The notes under the pieces were generated by a model. The model was not told where the DNA came from. It searched no databases and saw only the letters and a program-made list of their open reading frames with translations. A stretch of DNA of 36,383 nucleotides, taken from a virus. This document shows, one piece after another, positions 14,820-22,503 of this stretch. The position numbers were made by a program, and so were the translations under genes. The stretch covers positions 1 through 36,383 of IMG/VR virus record IMGVR_UViG_3300031857_000615; one strand, written 5' to 3'. Position 1 is the stretch's first letter; every line of letters starts with the position of its first letter.

Positions 14820-15376
14820 GACTCCCTCACGAAGAAGAGCAGCGTGGGGCGGCCCCAACCAGACCCCTGACGCTTATCCGTATCACGGAATCTGCAAGAC
14901 GTAACCCAGTCACATTTGAAGTTGTTTTCGTAAAAACGGTCAATCCAATACTCGGTCAACTGTTCGTTGACGTGGTGGTGCCCACCCTGCCCCGGGATGG
15001 CGTGGCACATGAGCACATACTTGCAGCGCGCCATGGTTGCAAACCAGTTCGGCTCGCAGCGTTGCTCGACGTGTTCGACAAACTCGGTGCAAATGGCAAG
15101 GTCATACTCGCGGCCCGGGTCGTATGGCCCCTTTTCGTAGTCGTGCGCAACCAAAATCTCCTTGACCGGGCTTTCGGCAAGCGCAACCGGATGACCTTCC
15201 ACGCCACGCGCATCAAAGCCTAGGTCGTGCCACCAGCGGATGTTATGACCCATCCCGGCGCCAATGTCGATCACCGACTTGATGTTGTACGTCAGCGCAA
15301 GGTATCCCCAAATGTCAGGCATCCACGTTGCGCGGTCGCCCTCTGGAATGTAGCCGCCTAAGTGCTCAATGCTCAT
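14816..15376 (-). CDS. Class I SAM-dependent methyltransferase
   Basis: 186 residues from ATG at 15376, which overlaps the terminase stop as ATGA; an upstream in-frame start inside the terminase gene is less likely. The SAM-binding motif I is SVIDIGAGMGHN, the ribose-binding acidic residue is in GVEGHP, and motif II/post-II is YDLAICTEFVEHVE. His-rich GQGGHHHVNEQ followed by YWIDRF resembles small-molecule or glycan methyltransferases more than DNA methylases, and no DPPY/NPPF catalytic motif is present. It is followed by two glycan-related genes, so methylation of a sugar is a sensible inference. The acceptor is unproven. Confidence 0.78.
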   Translation of the reverse strand: MSIEHLGGYIPEGDRATWMPDIWGYLALTYNIKSVIDIGAGMGHNIRWWHDLGFDARGVEGHPVALAESPVKEILVAHDYEKGPYDPGREYDLAICTEFVEHVEQRCEPNWFATMARCKYVLMCHAIPGQGGHHHVNEQLTEYWIDRFYENNFKCDWVTSCRFRDTDKRQGSGWGRPTLLFFVRES

Positions 15377-16770
15377 ACCACTCCCCGAATCTGTCTCTTG
15401 ACCGGCTTTGTCCACGTCGGCGCGTATACGCCGCCACCTGTCGCCGCCTCGCTCGCAAAGGTCAGCACGAACGCATCGGCCACGTCGGGCGAGCGCAGCC
15501 CGCGTCGCTTCATGTCGTCCTTGCTCTCAAGTTTGAGTTTGCCGTTTGACATGAACGAATACCGTGGCGAGGATAATTCATTCACAAGGCGCTCGTCACG
15601 CGGCAGTTTGCAGTCGCGCGCCTCAAGCCACGCCTTGGCCTTGCTCCACAGCTCCGCGCGCAGGTTCATGTACTGCCCCTTGAAGGCGGGCGACTCGCCG
15701 ACGTTGATGCCACGGGCGGGCAACTTCAACTCGCGCAGACGATCCACCACACCTGCGCCCAAGCCGATGCTGTCAATCAGGATTTCAGCAGGGCGGTCTT
15801 TATGGTCGGTGGACTCGTACTCGTGCAGCACCGCGCCGGTCAGCGCCATGAGGTCAAGGTTCTTCCACGTCTTGACCGGCTCCAGCACGACGTTTGACTG
15901 ACGCTTGCAAAGCGCCGATGAGTCGGTGCCGAAGCGGGCCACGTCCAAGCCCCAGAGGATGGGGGCGTTGGGGTTTTGGACAACATCGCGATCAATGGCG
16001 CTTTGGGCCAACTCCAGCCCAATTAGCGTGTCGTCGTCGGCGACGGGGAACTCGCCCAGGACGCGCACACGGTAGGCGTTTGACCCTTCGCCGTACCGGC
16101 TTGACATCTCCTTGACGTAATCCTCACTCACCCGGGGCGAGTCGAGGCAACTGACGTGCAGGTTTTTCCACTCGCCGGAAAGACGGTGGAAGGTGTCGTA
16201 GAAGTACCCGGTGGTACGGGTGGGGTTGCCGAGCAGGAGCGTCGTGGCGTTGTGGCCGGACATGCTGCCGCCTGCGGATTCAAAGACGGCCTCCGATACG
16301 CCGGGGGCTTCGTCCACGACCAGCAGCACCCACTCGGCGTGGATACCTTGCAAGGCGTCGGGCTGCTCGGCGCGACTGGTACGGGCTGAGATAAACGACT
16401 CTTCGGGGCTGGCTTTTAGTTCAATTCGGTCGGACTTGATCTCGAGCAACTCCCCCACGGCGGGGGGTAGCAGTTTGGCCCAGCGGCGGCATTCGCCGAA
16501 GAGGGCGTCGAACAACTGGCTTGCCGTCGGGGCGGTGACGACCACTTTGACGGGTACGCGGGTGAGCATGAACCAGAGCATGGCCCACGAGGCGACGGTG
16601 GATTTGCCCGTTCCGTGGCCCGACCTGACCGAGACTTTGCGTTCTCCCGCAGCCAGAAGCTCTAGGAGCCGTTTTTGCCATGGGTCTGGTGTCACCCCAA
16701 GGACTTCCTCCACGAAGGCCACAGGAGCCTTGTGGTAGCGTTTAACGAAATCGAGGTACGGATTCTGCAT
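15373..16770 (-). CDS. terL: Terminase large subunit
   Basis: 465 residues. It powers DNA translocation into the prohead and cuts the concatemer. The ATPase domain shows Walker A GHGTGKST (51-58) and Walker B VLLVVDEA (148-155) with the catalytic Glu after Asp, and coupling motif LLLGNPTRT (178-186). The RNase H-like nuclease domain has GLDVARFGTD (274-283), ILIDSIGLG (330-338) and the C-terminal acidic SPDVADAF (427-434). These are all the residues expected of an active enzyme. It is preceded by the small subunit and a 284-base leader, and followed by the methyltransferase (ATGA overlap). Circular permutation of the genome suggests headful packaging, as in many P22-like phages. Confidence 0.95.
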   Translation of the reverse strand: MQNPYLDFVKRYHKAPVAFVEEVLGVTPDPWQKRLLELLAAGERKVSVRSGHGTGKSTVASWAMLWFMLTRVPVKVVVTAPTASQLFDALFGECRRWAKLLPPAVGELLEIKSDRIELKASPEESFISARTSRAEQPDALQGIHAEWVLLVVDEAPGVSEAVFESAGGSMSGHNATTLLLGNPTRTTGYFYDTFHRLSGEWKNLHVSCLDSPRVSEDYVKEMSSRYGEGSNAYRVRVLGEFPVADDDTLIGLELAQSAIDRDVVQNPNAPILWGLDVARFGTDSSALCKRQSNVVLEPVKTWKNLDLMALTGAVLHEYESTDHKDRPAEILIDSIGLGAGVVDRLRELKLPARGINVGESPAFKGQYMNLRAELWSKAKAWLEARDCKLPRDERLVNELSSPRYSFMSNGKLKLESKDDMKRRGLRSPDVADAFVLTFASEAATGGGVYAPTWTKPVKRQIRGVV

Positions 16771-17054
16771 TTTTTCAAATCGGCCTATGTGGGGTTAGCC
16801 GCGCGCCGCCCCCGGCAGGGGGTACCCCCGGGGGGGGTGGTTTCGCGGGCTGTCGCGCCGGTCGCGCGGGCTGTTTCGTTAGGAATCAACGGGTTACGCT
16901 CGCGCTGACCGCAGAGTGGACGACTTTACATAATGGGTATTATACGCACTGCCGCGCACAACCCTATACAAATCAATAACTTGCGCGTTGTGTAATTTCA
17001 CAGGTTGCATAGTTTTTGCGGATCGGTGCATAAAATCTGTGTTATGTTATAACA
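16771..17054 (-). promoter_or_regulatory. 284-base leader between terS and terL with candidate promoter
   Basis: No gene is supported here. On the minus strand a perfect TATAAT box lies at 16939-16944, but no convincing -35 box sits 16-18 bases upstream, so a phage activator would be needed. A 12-bp perfect palindrome (ATGTTATAACAT) at 17044-17055 overlaps the terS stop. Nearer terL, 16811-16837 is a cluster of overlapping G/C palindromes, and CGCGGGCTGT occurs twice (16844-16853, 16865-16874). This is the longest gap in the leftward arm and a natural place for a late promoter or a pac region. Confidence 0.4.
16811..16837. repeat. Overlapping G/C palindromes in the terL leader
   Basis: GGGGGTACCCCC (16818-16829) is a perfect palindrome that overlaps CCCCCGGGGG (from 16825) and a CCCCC-GGCA-GGGGG hairpin (16809-16822 region). 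The elements are mutually exclusive in RNA, so the terL leader could fold in alternative ways about 40-50 bases before its start codon. Confidence 0.5.
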
Positions 17055-17570
17055 TTACTCGGATTCTGAAGATGCGCGCGCCTGTGGCGACGCGCCTTCC
17101 GCTGTGTCGCGCGTCAGGTTTTCAGGCTCCACGACGCTCACCGTTCGCATGAGGTCACGCACCGCTTGCAGATGCAATTGCGTGGTGTCAGTGATGCGCA
17201 CGTCTTGCTGCACCTTGTTGCCCCATCGTTTTGGATCCATTCGCTCAGCAAGCCACTGCCTCGCACCCATCGCTACCTTCGCAGCGTTCGGATCAATCTG
17301 CTCTGTCTCAACCTTGTCAGCCAGCGCCTCGATGCGCTCGGCATTCGCAAGCGCCCTGGCGTTGCGCACGATCTCGTACCGCTCCATCAAGACTGGATCA
17401 GACTGCATCTTTCGCCATAGCACGCCGTAAGGCACATCACTGCCGCTCACGAATGATCGCAGCGTGTTGCCTTCAGCCAGATGCTCCCAAAGTTGCTCCC
17501 AGAAATCTGGCTTGGAAAGGATCGCCAGTGCCTTCTCTTGCCGCGCTCGCTTGATTGGTGTGCCTGCCAT
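17055..17570 (-). CDS. terS: Terminase small subunit
   Basis: 171 residues. The N-terminal region has an HTH-like arrangement (LWEHLAEGNTLRSFVSGSDVPYGVLWRKM is divided by its turn), followed by YEIVRNARALANAERIEALADKVE, a helix found in terminase small subunits of the Terminase_5-like type, then QWLAERMDPKRWGNK, a motif typical of this family. The C-terminal 30 residues are acidic and disordered and would contact the large subunit. It recognises the packaging site and loads terL, which follows after the leader. The gene starts in a TAATG overlap with the zinc-ribbon gene. Confidence 0.85.
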   Translation of the reverse strand: MAGTPIKRARQEKALAILSKPDFWEQLWEHLAEGNTLRSFVSGSDVPYGVLWRKMQSDPVLMERYEIVRNARALANAERIEALADKVETEQIDPNAAKVAMGARQWLAERMDPKRWGNKVQQDVRITDTTQLHLQAVRDLMRTVSVVEPENLTRDTAEGASPQARASSESE

Positions 17571-18571: not shown

Positions 18572-18843
18572 GTTGGCTTCCAGTCGTAGATCGGATTACG
18601 TTTCGGAGGGTCACGGTACTTATGCTCGTCAGCCTCGGCAGCAGCCTGCTCGAACGTGTCGAAGACCCCGAGTTGCTTTGGGATCACCCTGCCGTCAGGG
18701 CCGCGACGCCACAGGACGAACTCCTGCTTGCCGTTGATTTGTTGGCCACGGATAGAGAACCGACGGCACGCTGAGGTCTTGCCCCAGAAGTCTGAGTCCT
18801 CCCAGACGAGAGGCCCGGTCAGGTTGAGTTTACCTTGGCTCAT
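18559..18843 (-). CDS. Hypothetical protein (94 aa)
   Basis: 94 residues, not recognised. It reads as a small single-domain protein: a beta-rich start with WEDSDFWGKTSACRRFSIRG, a central VLWRRGPDGRVIPKQLGVFDTFEQAAAEAD in which the last part is a helix, and a Trp/Pro-rich end (DPPKRNPIYDWKPTWPK). The layout of strands leading into FDTFEQAAAEAD resembles small phage proteins that bind a ligand or nucleic acid with one helix packed on a sheet. No catalytic motif is visible. It overlaps both neighbours by 13-14 bases. Confidence 0.6.
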   Translation of the reverse strand: MSQGKLNLTGPLVWEDSDFWGKTSACRRFSIRGQQINGKQEFVLWRRGPDGRVIPKQLGVFDTFEQAAAEADEHKYRDPPKRNPIYDWKPTWPK

Positions 18844-19060
18844 CGGCCCACCCAGGCTTCTTGCCTGCCTCGCCTTGCGCGTCTTGGTAGTGAGCCATCT
18901 TGGCGCCGAAGACTTGCTGGAAGGTACGGATCACTTGAAAGTCATCCGTCCCCATGGCCTCGAGCATACGCTTCGCCATGTCCGTCTCTGCCACCGGATC
19001 AGCCAGCTTGATGCGCTTCTGACTCGTACTGTGGTTTTTATGCAACTTGGGGAGTTTCAT
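18830..19060 (-). CDS. Hypothetical small protein (76 aa)
   Basis: 76 residues, basic at the N-terminus (MKLPKLHKNHSTSQKRIKL) and helical thereafter (AETDMAKRMLEAMGTDDFQVIRTFQQVFGAK). No known domain is recognised. The ATG at 19060 overlaps the stop of a possible FPQ-repeat reading frame as ATGA, and GGGG of the G-tract region already begins inside its first codons. The end overlaps the next gene by 14 bases. It is the first well-supported gene after the G-tract region in the leftward direction. Confidence 0.55.
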   Translation of the reverse strand: MKLPKLHKNHSTSQKRIKLADPVAETDMAKRMLEAMGTDDFQVIRTFQQVFGAKMAHYQDAQGEAGKKPGWADEPR

Positions 19061-19260
19061 ACCGCCCCCACGTCAACTGGGGAAAAACTGGGGGAAAGAC
19101 CAAAACGTGCGTAAGTCATTGATTCTTCGTTCCCCCAGTTGGATCGGGTATATATAACTGGGGAACTGGGGAACTTGGGGAAGAACCCCAAGATTCCCTC
19201 CCCCAGTTGCTTGAGCAACATGGGGAAGACTTGGGGAAACTGGGGAAACTGGGGGAAAGT
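19049..19260. repeat. G-tract (TGGGGAA) repeat region with G-quadruplex motif and hairpins
   Basis: On the + strand, runs of four or five G recur within the shared context ACTGGGGAA at 19049, 19079, 19090, 19160, 19168, 19177, 19222, 19233, 19242 and 19251. The last four (19222-19255) have loops of 7, 5 and 5 bases, a canonical G-quadruplex motif. Inverted copies occur at 19132 and 19200. Two hairpins lie within: CTTGGGG/CCCCAAG (19174-19192) and GTTGCT/AGCAAC (19206-19219). The spacing of 8-11 bases places many tracts on one DNA face. The region directly follows the primase-helicase gene. An origin, an operator array or an mRNA structure are all possible. Confidence 0.75.
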
Positions 19261-19281
19261 TTGTTGCTCAGAACGGCACAT
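19057..19281 (-). CDS. Possible FPQ-repeat small protein read through the G-tract region
   Basis: An open frame of 74 residues runs from ATG at 19281, just inside the primase-helicase end, to a TGA that overlaps the next ATG as ATGA, the coupling seen throughout this genome. It would start MCRSEQQTFPQFPQFPQVFP and contain FFPKFPSSP and SPSFSPVD, simply the translation of TTTCCCCAG repeats. An internal ATG at MLLKQLGEG is also possible. The coupling favours a real gene, while the low complexity favours a non-coding repeat with an accidental frame. I cannot decide from sequence alone. Confidence 0.35.
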   Translation of the reverse strand: MCRSEQQTFPQFPQFPQVFPMLLKQLGEGILGFFPKFPSSPVIYTRSNWGNEESMTYARFGLSPSFSPVDVGAV

Positions 19282-21472
19282 CGTCAGCCTCCTCGACCGC
19301 CTCACCGGCCTTGTACGCCGTGAAGTACCTGCCCTTCGCATGATCCCGCGCCTGCACCTTGGTAATGCTGCCGGCCTTCTCCCACTCATCCAGCACCCGC
19401 CTGACCGTCGCCCTAGCGCCAGCGTCGTTGATGTCCAGCTCCATGTGCTTCGCCACGATACGCCCAGCCCACTGCGTGCTGCGCACATCGGCCCGAACTA
19501 GCAGCGGGTCTTTCGCATACGCCGCCTCAAGTTCGCGCAATACGATTGCCTTCTGCCCCTGCGTCAGTTGCGTGTCAGCCGTCGGTGGGTTCCACTCCTC
19601 AACCACGCCAACCTTGTCGCCCTCGGTATAGATGCCGTCGGCGTTGCCCAACTCCACGCTCACCAACTGCCGCCACAGCCGCTCGTCCGTCGGCGGCCTC
19701 ATGTTGGCCTTCGGGTTCTGTAACCAGAAGTACCGCCGCCGCTCCTTCACGTCGATGCTGTACCGCTCGGCCTCGCCTTGGCTCATGGGTGATGCGATCC
19801 GCACGCTACGGCACGCGCCAAGTAGCGCCGAAGCACCGCGCACGTCCTCGCTTGACGCTTCGTTGCCGTTGCCCTTACGGAAATGATGGACAATCTCGAC
19901 CGCTATATTCCCTTGATCTGCGATGGCGCGCCATTCCCACATGACCTTTTCCATTGCCGGGTTATCGTTCTCGTTCACGCCATGGGTAGCGATGAACGGG
20001 TCAAGGATCATCACGTCGATGCCGAGCGCGTTGATCTGCTCGACGATCTGCTCACGCACTGCCGGCACCTGCATCACCGTGCCGTCAACCGTCTCTGCCA
20101 CGATGATCCGCGTGTCGCGTCCGCTCGTGATAAAAAGGTTGTTGGCGACCTCGTGTGCGTCTAACTCATAGTTCATGCAGATCGCGCCGAGCCTGCGCTG
20201 CAACTCCTCAAGCGGGTCTTCGCCGTTGTGCACCCAGACCTTCAGCGGCCCGGTCGGTAACTGCCACTTGCCGCGGAAGAGATCGCGCCCGAGTGCCATG
20301 CTCACCGCCTCAACCATCGTCATCGACGATTTACCGCCACCACCCGCACCGGCAGTCATGCCTACCATGCGGCGCATGTAGTGGAAGCCATACAGCCATT
20401 GCCGTGGCGGTATTGACCTCGGGTCGATCGGTTCCCAGCGCCGCGCGGAAATGCCGCCACCTGTCGGCGCGACGCTCTGCACGATACTGAACTCAGGCTC
20501 AAATGATGGTGCCATGCCCTGCGCCTCCGGCAGGTTTTCGTAACTACGAATATCCACCTCGGGCAAGTCCTTCGGCAGCTCCGGCACCACGTTGATCCTT
20601 ACGTCTGGCATAGTGCCGCCAAACTTACGCACCGCACTCGCCGCCATCGGCTCAATGCGGCTGCGCAAGTCCACGCCATCGGCGTTGCGACTGCTGCCGC
20701 TGCTGTCAAGCAGTTCGGTGAGCGCCGCCACCACGTCGTCGTAATCCATGCCCCGTGCGGCCCAGCGGCTTGACAGTTTCAGCATCGCCTCGTACCGCCC
20801 CTCGCCACGGGCAAACGCCTCCACGAGCTGCTGATTACTACGAGTGTCACGCCCTGTCTTCGGGTCAGTGCCTTGCGCCTGGTGGTACACCAGCGCCAAG
20901 TCCACGGCCTGATCTACGCACCTGCCATGCGACTCAAACCACTTGTACTTCGCGCCACGCACTGCGCCAAAGTAGAAGCTCTGGCTCAGTGTGAAGCTCT
21001 CGCGGCTGGCAATACCACCGAGCGCGAAGTTGGCACGCGCGACATAGACTGCCCTTTGCGCCGGGACTGCCGGCTCAGAGAGTGGCAGCAGCGCACGCCA
21101 CCTTGGCGCCCCCTCGGTGTAACTCGCAGACGTGTAGATCAGCGCGACAAGCCCTGCCGCCTGAAGGCGCAGGATGCCCTCCTCTGGCGTAACCTCCTCG
21201 CCGTCGTAGTCCACCTCGATGCCGTATACACGCTTGACGTTTGCCGCATGCCGCAGCCCACCGCCGTCGCTTACGAGGTCGCCGTACTCACAGAGCGAGA
21301 GCAGCGGGCACGACTGCTTGGACATGTGCGCGACCGGCTGCGCAATCATGCGCACCACGTCTGTCCATGCCGCGTCGGCGTATTCCTTTTTCTCTTTGGC
21401 CTGTACGTTGGGGAAGACGGTGTAGGTAATCAGCGGCCCACTATCGTCAACCCGTGTCATGCTTTTCATCAT
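19268..21472 (-). CDS. Bifunctional primase-helicase (AEP-like N-terminus, RepA/AAA_25 ATPase)
   Basis: 734 residues. Residues about 1-200 look like an archaeo-eukaryotic-type primase: acidic VDYD (87-90), YTSASY, RWRALLPL (124-131). A linker leads to a RecA-like hexameric helicase of RepA type: Walker A AGAGGGGKSS (374-383), Walker B VMILDPF (487-493) and sensor VHHFRKG (528-534). A winged-helix-like C-terminal segment follows (about 640-715). The last residues, EEADDVPF, mimic the acidic tip of bacterial SSB, which recruits replication partners. It would open and prime the phage origin for host DNA polymerase. It overlaps the HNH gene by ATGA and is followed by the G-tract region. The start could be M1, M2 or M5. 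Confidence 0.85.
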   Translation of the reverse strand: MMKSMTRVDDSGPLITYTVFPNVQAKEKKEYADAAWTDVVRMIAQPVAHMSKQSCPLLSLCEYGDLVSDGGGLRHAANVKRVYGIEVDYDGEEVTPEEGILRLQAAGLVALIYTSASYTEGAPRWRALLPLSEPAVPAQRAVYVARANFALGGIASRESFTLSQSFYFGAVRGAKYKWFESHGRCVDQAVDLALVYHQAQGTDPKTGRDTRSNQQLVEAFARGEGRYEAMLKLSSRWAARGMDYDDVVAALTELLDSSGSSRNADGVDLRSRIEPMAASAVRKFGGTMPDVRINVVPELPKDLPEVDIRSYENLPEAQGMAPSFEPEFSIVQSVAPTGGGISARRWEPIDPRSIPPRQWLYGFHYMRRMVGMTAGAGGGGKSSMTMVEAVSMALGRDLFRGKWQLPTGPLKVWVHNGEDPLEELQRRLGAICMNYELDAHEVANNLFITSGRDTRIIVAETVDGTVMQVPAVREQIVEQINALGIDVMILDPFIATHGVNENDNPAMEKVMWEWRAIADQGNIAVEIVHHFRKGNGNEASSEDVRGASALLGACRSVRIASPMSQGEAERYSIDVKERRRYFWLQNPKANMRPPTDERLWRQLVSVELGNADGIYTEGDKVGVVEEWNPPTADTQLTQGQKAIVLRELEAAYAKDPLLVRADVRSTQWAGRIVAKHMELDINDAGARATVRRVLDEWEKAGSITKVQARDHAKGRYFTAYKAGEAVEEADDVPF

Positions 21473-22077: not shown

Positions 22078-22260
22078 TCATTTGCCTCGGAAGACCATCT
22101 TCCAAGTGCGCTCAACTCTGTCCAACAGGTGGTCAAGCCAATCCTTCTCTTCCTCCGGCTGCCACACCACCACCGGATCAACCGGCAGGCTCTTAGGCTT
22201 GCGCGGCTTGGCGGCCTTGCTCTGGCGTTTGGCTGGGGTTTTCTTGATTGCTTTCTTCAT
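22078..22260 (-). CDS. Small bipartite basic/acidic protein (60 aa)
   Basis: 60 residues from ATG at 22260, which overlaps the regulator stop as ATGA; the longer frame upstream belongs to the regulator gene. The first half is a Lys/Ala/Pro-rich histone-like segment (MKKAIKKTPAKRQSKAAKPR), the second half an acidic, Trp-rich amphipathic helix (EEEKDWLDHLLDRVERTW). The family is not recognised. As the second gene of the leftward operon it is expressed early together with the regulator. A DNA-binding accessory is plausible from its composition. Confidence 0.6.
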   Translation of the reverse strand: MKKAIKKTPAKRQSKAAKPRKPKSLPVDPVVVWQPEEEKDWLDHLLDRVERTWKMVFRGK

Positions 22261-22466
22261 GGGTATAAGTCCGGTCGCAGTTTGTGCCGTGATATCCCGC
22301 TTGCGACTTCTAACGGGATGGCCTTCAAGGCAGGAACCCTGCCCCTCTTGATCCAATATTGAACGGCTTGCTGGGTTACGCCTAGCTTTTTCGCCGTCGC
22401 CGTTTGTCCGCCCAATACGTCCACTGCGTGGACAAGGGCGATAGTCTCAGATGGTGGTTTTTTCAT
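22257..22466 (-). CDS. Cro/YdaS-like helix-turn-helix regulator
   Basis: 69 residues from ATG at 22466; two in-frame TTG codons lie just upstream. The core LGGQTATAKKLGVTQQAVQYWIKRGRVPA is a textbook Cro/CI or YdaS-type HTH with recognition helix QQAVQYWIKRG, and the ending RHKLRPDLYP is a hallmark of the YdaS_antitoxin/Cro group. It is the first gene of the leftward arm and faces the divergent control region, so it very likely represses or balances the two arms. Its own promoter leaves almost no 5' leader. No partner CI or integrase gene is found, so whether the phage is temperate is open. Confidence 0.85.
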   Translation of the reverse strand: MKKPPSETIALVHAVDVLGGQTATAKKLGVTQQAVQYWIKRGRVPALKAIPLEVASGISRHKLRPDLYP

Positions 22467-22474
22467 GGCCAACA

Positions 22475-22503
22475 AGGATATTTTGTCTGTCGTTTTGTGT
22501 CAA
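22475..22503 (-). promoter_or_regulatory. Promoter of the Cro/YdaS-like gene
   Basis: On the minus strand TTGACA (22503-22498) is followed by exactly 17 bases and TATCCT (22480-22475), a strong sigma-70 arrangement. Only 8 bases separate the -10 box from the ATG at 22466, so the message would have a leader of about 2-3 bases, or none if one of the upstream TTG codons is used. Confidence 0.7.

Follow-up and report, generated by a model that had tools for sequence, protein, structure and literature searches.

A G-run array behind a RepA-type helicase gene as the likely iteron part of a phage replication origin

Genes and repeats at the locus

The window analyzed here is the whole 36,383-nucleotide stretch of viral DNA deposited as IMG/VR record IMGVR_UViG_3300031857_000615 (positions 1 to 36,383). 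Its minus strand carries a helicase gene followed by a dense array of G- and C-runs, which extends from just past the helicase stop codon to the start of a 76-residue gene whose first codons overlap the last iteron (Table 1). The helicase comprises an N-terminal part without a recognized domain, an AAA_25/RSF1010-RepA-like ATPase (residues ~350-610), and a C-terminal winged-helix domain. A frame of FPQ repeats also runs through the array as part of an open reading frame at 19057-19488 (minus strand). Upstream of the HNH and helicase genes sits a small YdaS/Cro-like regulator (22257-22475, minus strand), a position that recalls the lambdoid replication operon of temperate phages.

The initial annotation had singled out an array of G-tracts directly after a replication gene, and both the array and its placement are borne out. 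Positions 19049-19255 hold ten G-runs and four C-runs with a length of at least four, giving 14 runs in 241 bases, whereas the next densest 241-base stretch of the window has six such runs. The real count lies far above that of shuffled sequences: the densest 241-base stretch contained nine runs when the window was dinucleotide-shuffled 100 times, and shuffling the array itself gave a mean of 5.9 runs and a maximum of 10. A repeat of the [A/C][C/T]TGGGG type contains 12 of the 14 runs, nine on the plus strand and three inverted; the exceptions are the run at 19065, outside any such repeat, and that at 19222, which has the degenerate form ATGGGG. Plus-strand copies of [A/C][C/T]TGGGG[A/G]A are located at 19046, 19076, 19087, 19157, 19165, 19174, 19230, 19239, and 19248, and inverted copies start at approximately 19130, 19183, and 19198. 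Read in the orientation of the helicase gene (minus strand), the repeat is TTCCCCAGT.

Table 1 Coordinates of the array, its neighboring genes, and candidate functional elements in the window.
Feature	Position	Strand	Basis or remark
Iteron array	19046..19256	.	Repeat coordinates; conserved in 16 relatives
Helicase gene, 734 aa	19268..21472	-	AAA_25, E=4.6e-33; PDB match RSF1010 RepA 1g8y
Downstream 76-aa gene	18830..19060	-	Counterparts 3′ of the array in relatives
FPQ-repeat frame	19057..19281	-	Open; judged not to be a gene (even substitutions, frame-shifting indels)
AATCAATGACTTA, exact match to IHF consensus WATCAANNNNTTR	19112..19124	-	Consensus match; candidate IHF site
TATATATA, candidate DNA-unwinding element	19149..19156	.	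TA-rich; flanked by closely spaced iterons and, facing it, an inverted copy
C-terminal winged-helix domain, residues ~640-723	19304..19555	-	AlphaFold2 model; putative iteron reader
Codon 664 (Arg)	19481..19483	-	Putative reader of iteron bases 1-2; top of 364 columns
Codons 714 (Gly) and 715 (Arg)	19328..19333	-	Putative readers of base 8 (714) and bases 5-6 (715)

The array in close and distant relatives

Scanning viral contigs with the helicase yielded 21 loci, with identities of 68-99% in their best segments. The array lies 3′ of the helicase stop codon wherever the fetched DNA includes the end of the gene (L019 ends inside the array), and the window could be aligned across the array with 16 relatives that share this placement. 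The array DNA is 83-90% identical to that of L015, L003, L011, and L004, while four-fold sites in the helicase gene are 52-55% identical. In L012, the most distant of the close relatives, an array occupies the same place but is built from a different repeat, TTTGGGGAA.

Searching with a profile built from the ATPase core plus the C-terminal domain extended the family to 80 viral loci, some of them on contigs already found, and 32 genome loci, which are alphaproteobacterial as far as their record titles name them; most loci are metagenomic fragments. Most of the approximately 90 distant relatives carry an array directly 3′ of the helicase gene or at most ~1.7 kb downstream, and none was seen in the DNA fetched around some helicase homologs. 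Arrays in the distant loci were first detected without any pattern constraint, and a second, pattern-based pass then assigned one 9-bp consensus to each locus. The 85 sequences with a clear array were kept for comparison of repeat and protein. With few exceptions, their repeats fit the 9-bp form [A/G][C/G]TG-NN-G-N-A, of which the window repeat, ACTGGGGAA, is the NN = GG version; related arrays display the same layout with other repeats (ACTGGAGCA, ACTGACGCA, and GGTGTCGCA). A search of viral contigs with the pattern TCCCCAAATTCCCCAAA returned mostly unrelated matches.

The N-terminal part of the helicase varies across the family. It has no recognized domain in the window, and contains a Prim-Pol with PriCT_2 in L015; the plasmid relatives have a separate upstream Toprim gene. 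The C-terminal domain and the array remain linked while this primase part is exchanged. Among the annotated proteins and ten scanned proteins of pVL1_6, a circular plasmid, no replication module was recognized apart from the Toprim-helicase pair.

Two circular plasmids, L259 (NZ_AP024151.1) and L262 (NZ_LR026982.1), are probably phage-plasmids because they carry phage genes (tape measure; terminase, portal, and capsid) together with the helicase-array module. At six loci (L204, L210, L211, L213, L219, and L225), a lone AAATCAATGACTTAC box is found ~1365-1406 bases past the helicase stop codon, more than 1 kb from an array of three to four iteron copies directly behind the helicase gene. Other short repeats, GCCGTGGA, occur near the lone box in several of them.

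Repeat bases and helicase residues

Pfam identifies AAA_25 alone in the window helicase. When searched against PDB sequences, the profile of core and C-terminal domain matches only RSF1010 RepA (1g8y, E=1.4e-20, 234 profile positions), which shows the RecA-type core to be homologous, and neither Pfam nor the PDB sequence search detected a DUF927, D5/Primase_Cterm, or P4 alpha-type core in the window protein. For the C-terminal domain, a Pfam scan of 70 members returned no convincing family. An AlphaFold2 model of residues 612-734, with a pLDDT of ~95 over model residues 31-111, predicts the order H-H-H-E-E, in which three helices precede a two-stranded wing as expected of a winged-helix fold. 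Comparison with PDB folds gave weak winged-helix matches, among them TFE-alpha, PadR/LmrR, and DnaD-N. A model of the full-length helicase (mean pLDDT 46) was too poor for use.

For the 85 sequences, we computed how much mutual information every base of the repeat shares with every one of 364 protein columns. The top column is 664 for bases 1 and 2, 714 for base 8, and 715 for base 5; 715 also leads for base 6, though weakly. Base 6 excepted, these columns stand about six standard deviations above the remaining ones. All three residues fall within the C-terminal domain, and in the predicted structure 714 and 715 map to the wing tip, between model strands 92-98 and 105-111. Arg664 occurs with C at base 2 in 55 of 56 cases and Gln664 with G in 26 of 26. 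Arg714 accompanies C at base 8 in all 54 cases, while other residues at this position accompany A, G, or T (29 of 31). At position 715, Asp or Glu is found with C at base 5 (6 of 7), Arg, Lys, or Asn mostly with G, and His, Met, or Gln with A or T. The loci L171 and L179 have identical aligned ATPase cores but different repeats (ACTGACGCA versus ACTGGAGCA), and six changes separate their C-terminal domains, four of them in the wing.

Kinship was controlled for by counting independent pairs on a tree built from the core, with the C-terminal domain left out. Such pairs link residue 715 to base 5 (two groupings, median p 0.008 and 0.016) and to base 6 (0.03), the groupings having been picked after the tables were seen. 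Pairs for 664 and 714 never run in the opposite direction and are too few for significance. When whole clusters were held out, base 2 was correctly predicted from residue 664 in each of the 21 (accuracy 1.00, compared to 0.73 for the nearest relative), and base 5 from residue 715 with an accuracy of 0.78 (nearest relative, 0.38). The exact letter at base 8 was predicted there no better than by the majority letter; residue 714 distinguishes only C from not-C.

The rule derived from the 85 arrays was also applied to seven further annotated records. Five contain an array: plasmid pVL1_6, two Microvirga plasmids, a Rhodoplanes plasmid with phage genes, and a Microcystis phage. All 14 callable bases of these new arrays fitted the rule (5 of 5 records), and one Microvirga array mixes GGTGGGGA and GGTGAGGA. 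L263 has neither the wing nor an array, and L265 has a wing-like end with no array within 1.6 kb downstream. On the strength of these sequence comparisons, we strongly infer that the adjacent helicase would bind the array directly via its C-terminal domain. The suggestion that the array represents an origin or an initiator-binding site gains support, because the repeats co-vary with the putative DNA-reading residues of the neighboring protein.

Origin function and rival explanations

All 15 window-family arrays and 30 of the 45 other viral arrays contain the IHF consensus, which there always lies on the strand coding for the helicase; among control stretches its frequency is 2-4%. The consensus is found in none of the 25 alphaproteobacterial arrays, where TA runs are nearly absent too. 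TA runs of at least six occur in 46 of 85 arrays versus 112 of 1700 control stretches, and L166, L189, and L226 arrange the TA element and iterons much as the window does. The window contains no DnaA boxes or Rfam elements, and its GC skew gives no origin signal.

The position of the array is fixed, its DNA is under selection, and its repeats co-vary with helicase residues. As in iteron origins, several short repeats adjoin the gene of a putative initiator. We consider it very probable that the array forms the iteron part of the phage replication origin, with its iterons bound by the winged helix at the C-terminus of the neighboring RepA-type helicase; analogy and genomic context make the origin role itself likely. 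Under this model, the winged-helix domain would bind each 9-bp iteron, residue 664 would read bases 1-2, and the wing tip would read base 8 (via 714) and bases 5-6 (via 715). Many helicase copies would gather on the iterons. By analogy, IHF would bind at AATCAATGACTTA and bend the DNA there, and the TA-rich element TATATATA would open, where the helicase may load and begin unwinding.

Several known replicons share parts of this arrangement. RSF1010 has a related helicase core in RepA and iterons at its origin, but there the work is divided among three separate proteins, RepA, RepB′, and RepC, whereas here one polypeptide combines the helicase with the putative iteron-reading domain. In SaPI Rep and SCCmec Cch2, both self-loading helicases, the C-terminal domain recognizes an iteron origin just downstream of the protein's own gene (PMC7581432). 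The present family likewise has short iterons directly 3′ of its own helicase gene and a C-terminal domain predicted to read them; however, the SaPI Rep and Cch2 cores are of the DUF927 or D5/Primase_Cterm type rather than AAA_25/RSF1010-RepA-like, and the viral members here add the IHF-like site. In P4 alpha, one protein binds origin repeats through a winged-helix domain and then unwinds and primes (PMC4234260). A winged-helix domain for origin repeats appears to be common to both, but P4 alpha has a Toprim-type primase, whereas the present helicases have a core that matches RSF1010 RepA and a primase part that differs from relative to relative. PLE RepA from Vibrio cholerae satellites offers a parallel for co-variation, as its initiator DNA-binding domain and origin change together and are exchanged as a module (PMC8263062); it differs in using an N-terminal RepA_N domain and semi-palindromic repeats of ~30 bp in place of a C-terminal winged helix and 9-bp iterons. 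The family described here combines another helicase core with a readable recognition code. The open-access literature contained no description of it that we could find, and one may exist elsewhere.

The same bases had also been proposed to encode a peptide or to fold into a quadruplex. The FPQ frame is indeed open and its stop is coupled to the next gene (its TGA overlaps the ATG of that gene, at 19060, as ATGA), an overlap that some relatives retain; in L003 the stop lies past the next start, and in L011 the frame continues into the next gene. Its openness means little because C-run repeats seldom give stops, and as a protein the frame does not stand. Substitutions in relatives are spread evenly over its codon positions (for example 9/8/10 and 18/18/14), tract lengths vary by single bases that shift the frame in L003, L011, L016, and others, and neither PHROG nor Pfam gives a family match. 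We rejected the frame as a gene, and translation of an FPQ-repeat peptide through coupling to its neighbors is extremely improbable. Because substitutions are even and the array is so much better conserved than the four-fold helicase sites, selection acts on the array DNA and not on a peptide. Scarcely more credible is that the G-runs act as a DNA or RNA G-quadruplex regulating replication or expression. The canonical motif noted at 19222-19255 is present, the sole one in the window, and the closest relatives conserve the G-runs. However, a canonical motif is found in only 7 of the 15 window-family arrays, in 3 of the 25 from alphaproteobacteria, and in 0 of the 45 other viral arrays, and the architecture persists in homologous arrays whose repeats lack G-runs. 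Since the letters of the repeat change with three helicase residues, the G-runs represent the form that the repeat takes in this phage, a base choice of NN = GG, rather than a conserved quadruplex. A literature search on phage quadruplex origins and on the box sequence found nothing relevant.

A further possibility accepts the binding but not its purpose: the helicase, or a partner protein sharing its domain, might use the array as an operator of the downstream operon or as a copy-control site, with the origin elsewhere. The array abuts the downstream gene, plasmid iterons also serve copy control, and binding evidence alone does not establish origin activity. We nonetheless regard this explanation as unlikely. 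No promoter or terminator was found at the array, which lies downstream of the helicase gene; its IHF-like and TA-rich elements fit an origin; the window holds no further iteron cluster of this kind; and in the SaPI and Cch2 precedents the origin occupies exactly that place (PMC7581432).

Taking the array as an origin, we think it probable that widespread phage and phage-plasmid replicons rely on RepA-type helicases that bind their own origin, with the 664/714/715 code predicting the repeat and changes in the wing switching specificity, perhaps so that replicons sharing a cell do not interfere with one another. The code would provide a sequence-level route to the origins of phages and phage-plasmids that have not been cultured, as well as natural data on protein-DNA recognition by replication initiators. 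This reading also accounts for a striking array of G-runs with no need of a quadruplex. The near-identical helicases of L171 and L179, with their different repeats, make the evolution of origin specificity directly testable.

In many viral contigs (L035, L042, L058, L062, L083, L095, L116, L117, L127, and L129), the 15-mer AAATCAA[G/T]GACTTAC sits within iteron-like arrays whose repeats differ widely in sequence, and 22 of its 123 occurrences score at least 20 for local repeats versus 19 of ~1200 control stretches. AAA_25 helicases lie near it in L042, L083, L116, and L117, and it may mark a common origin layout of an IHF site combined with phage-specific iterons. In the window, two exact IHF-consensus matches (16884-16896 and 16971-16983), 87 bases apart, fall in the interval that separates the terminase gene (15373-16770) from the gene after it (17055-17570) and are possibly related to a packaging site.
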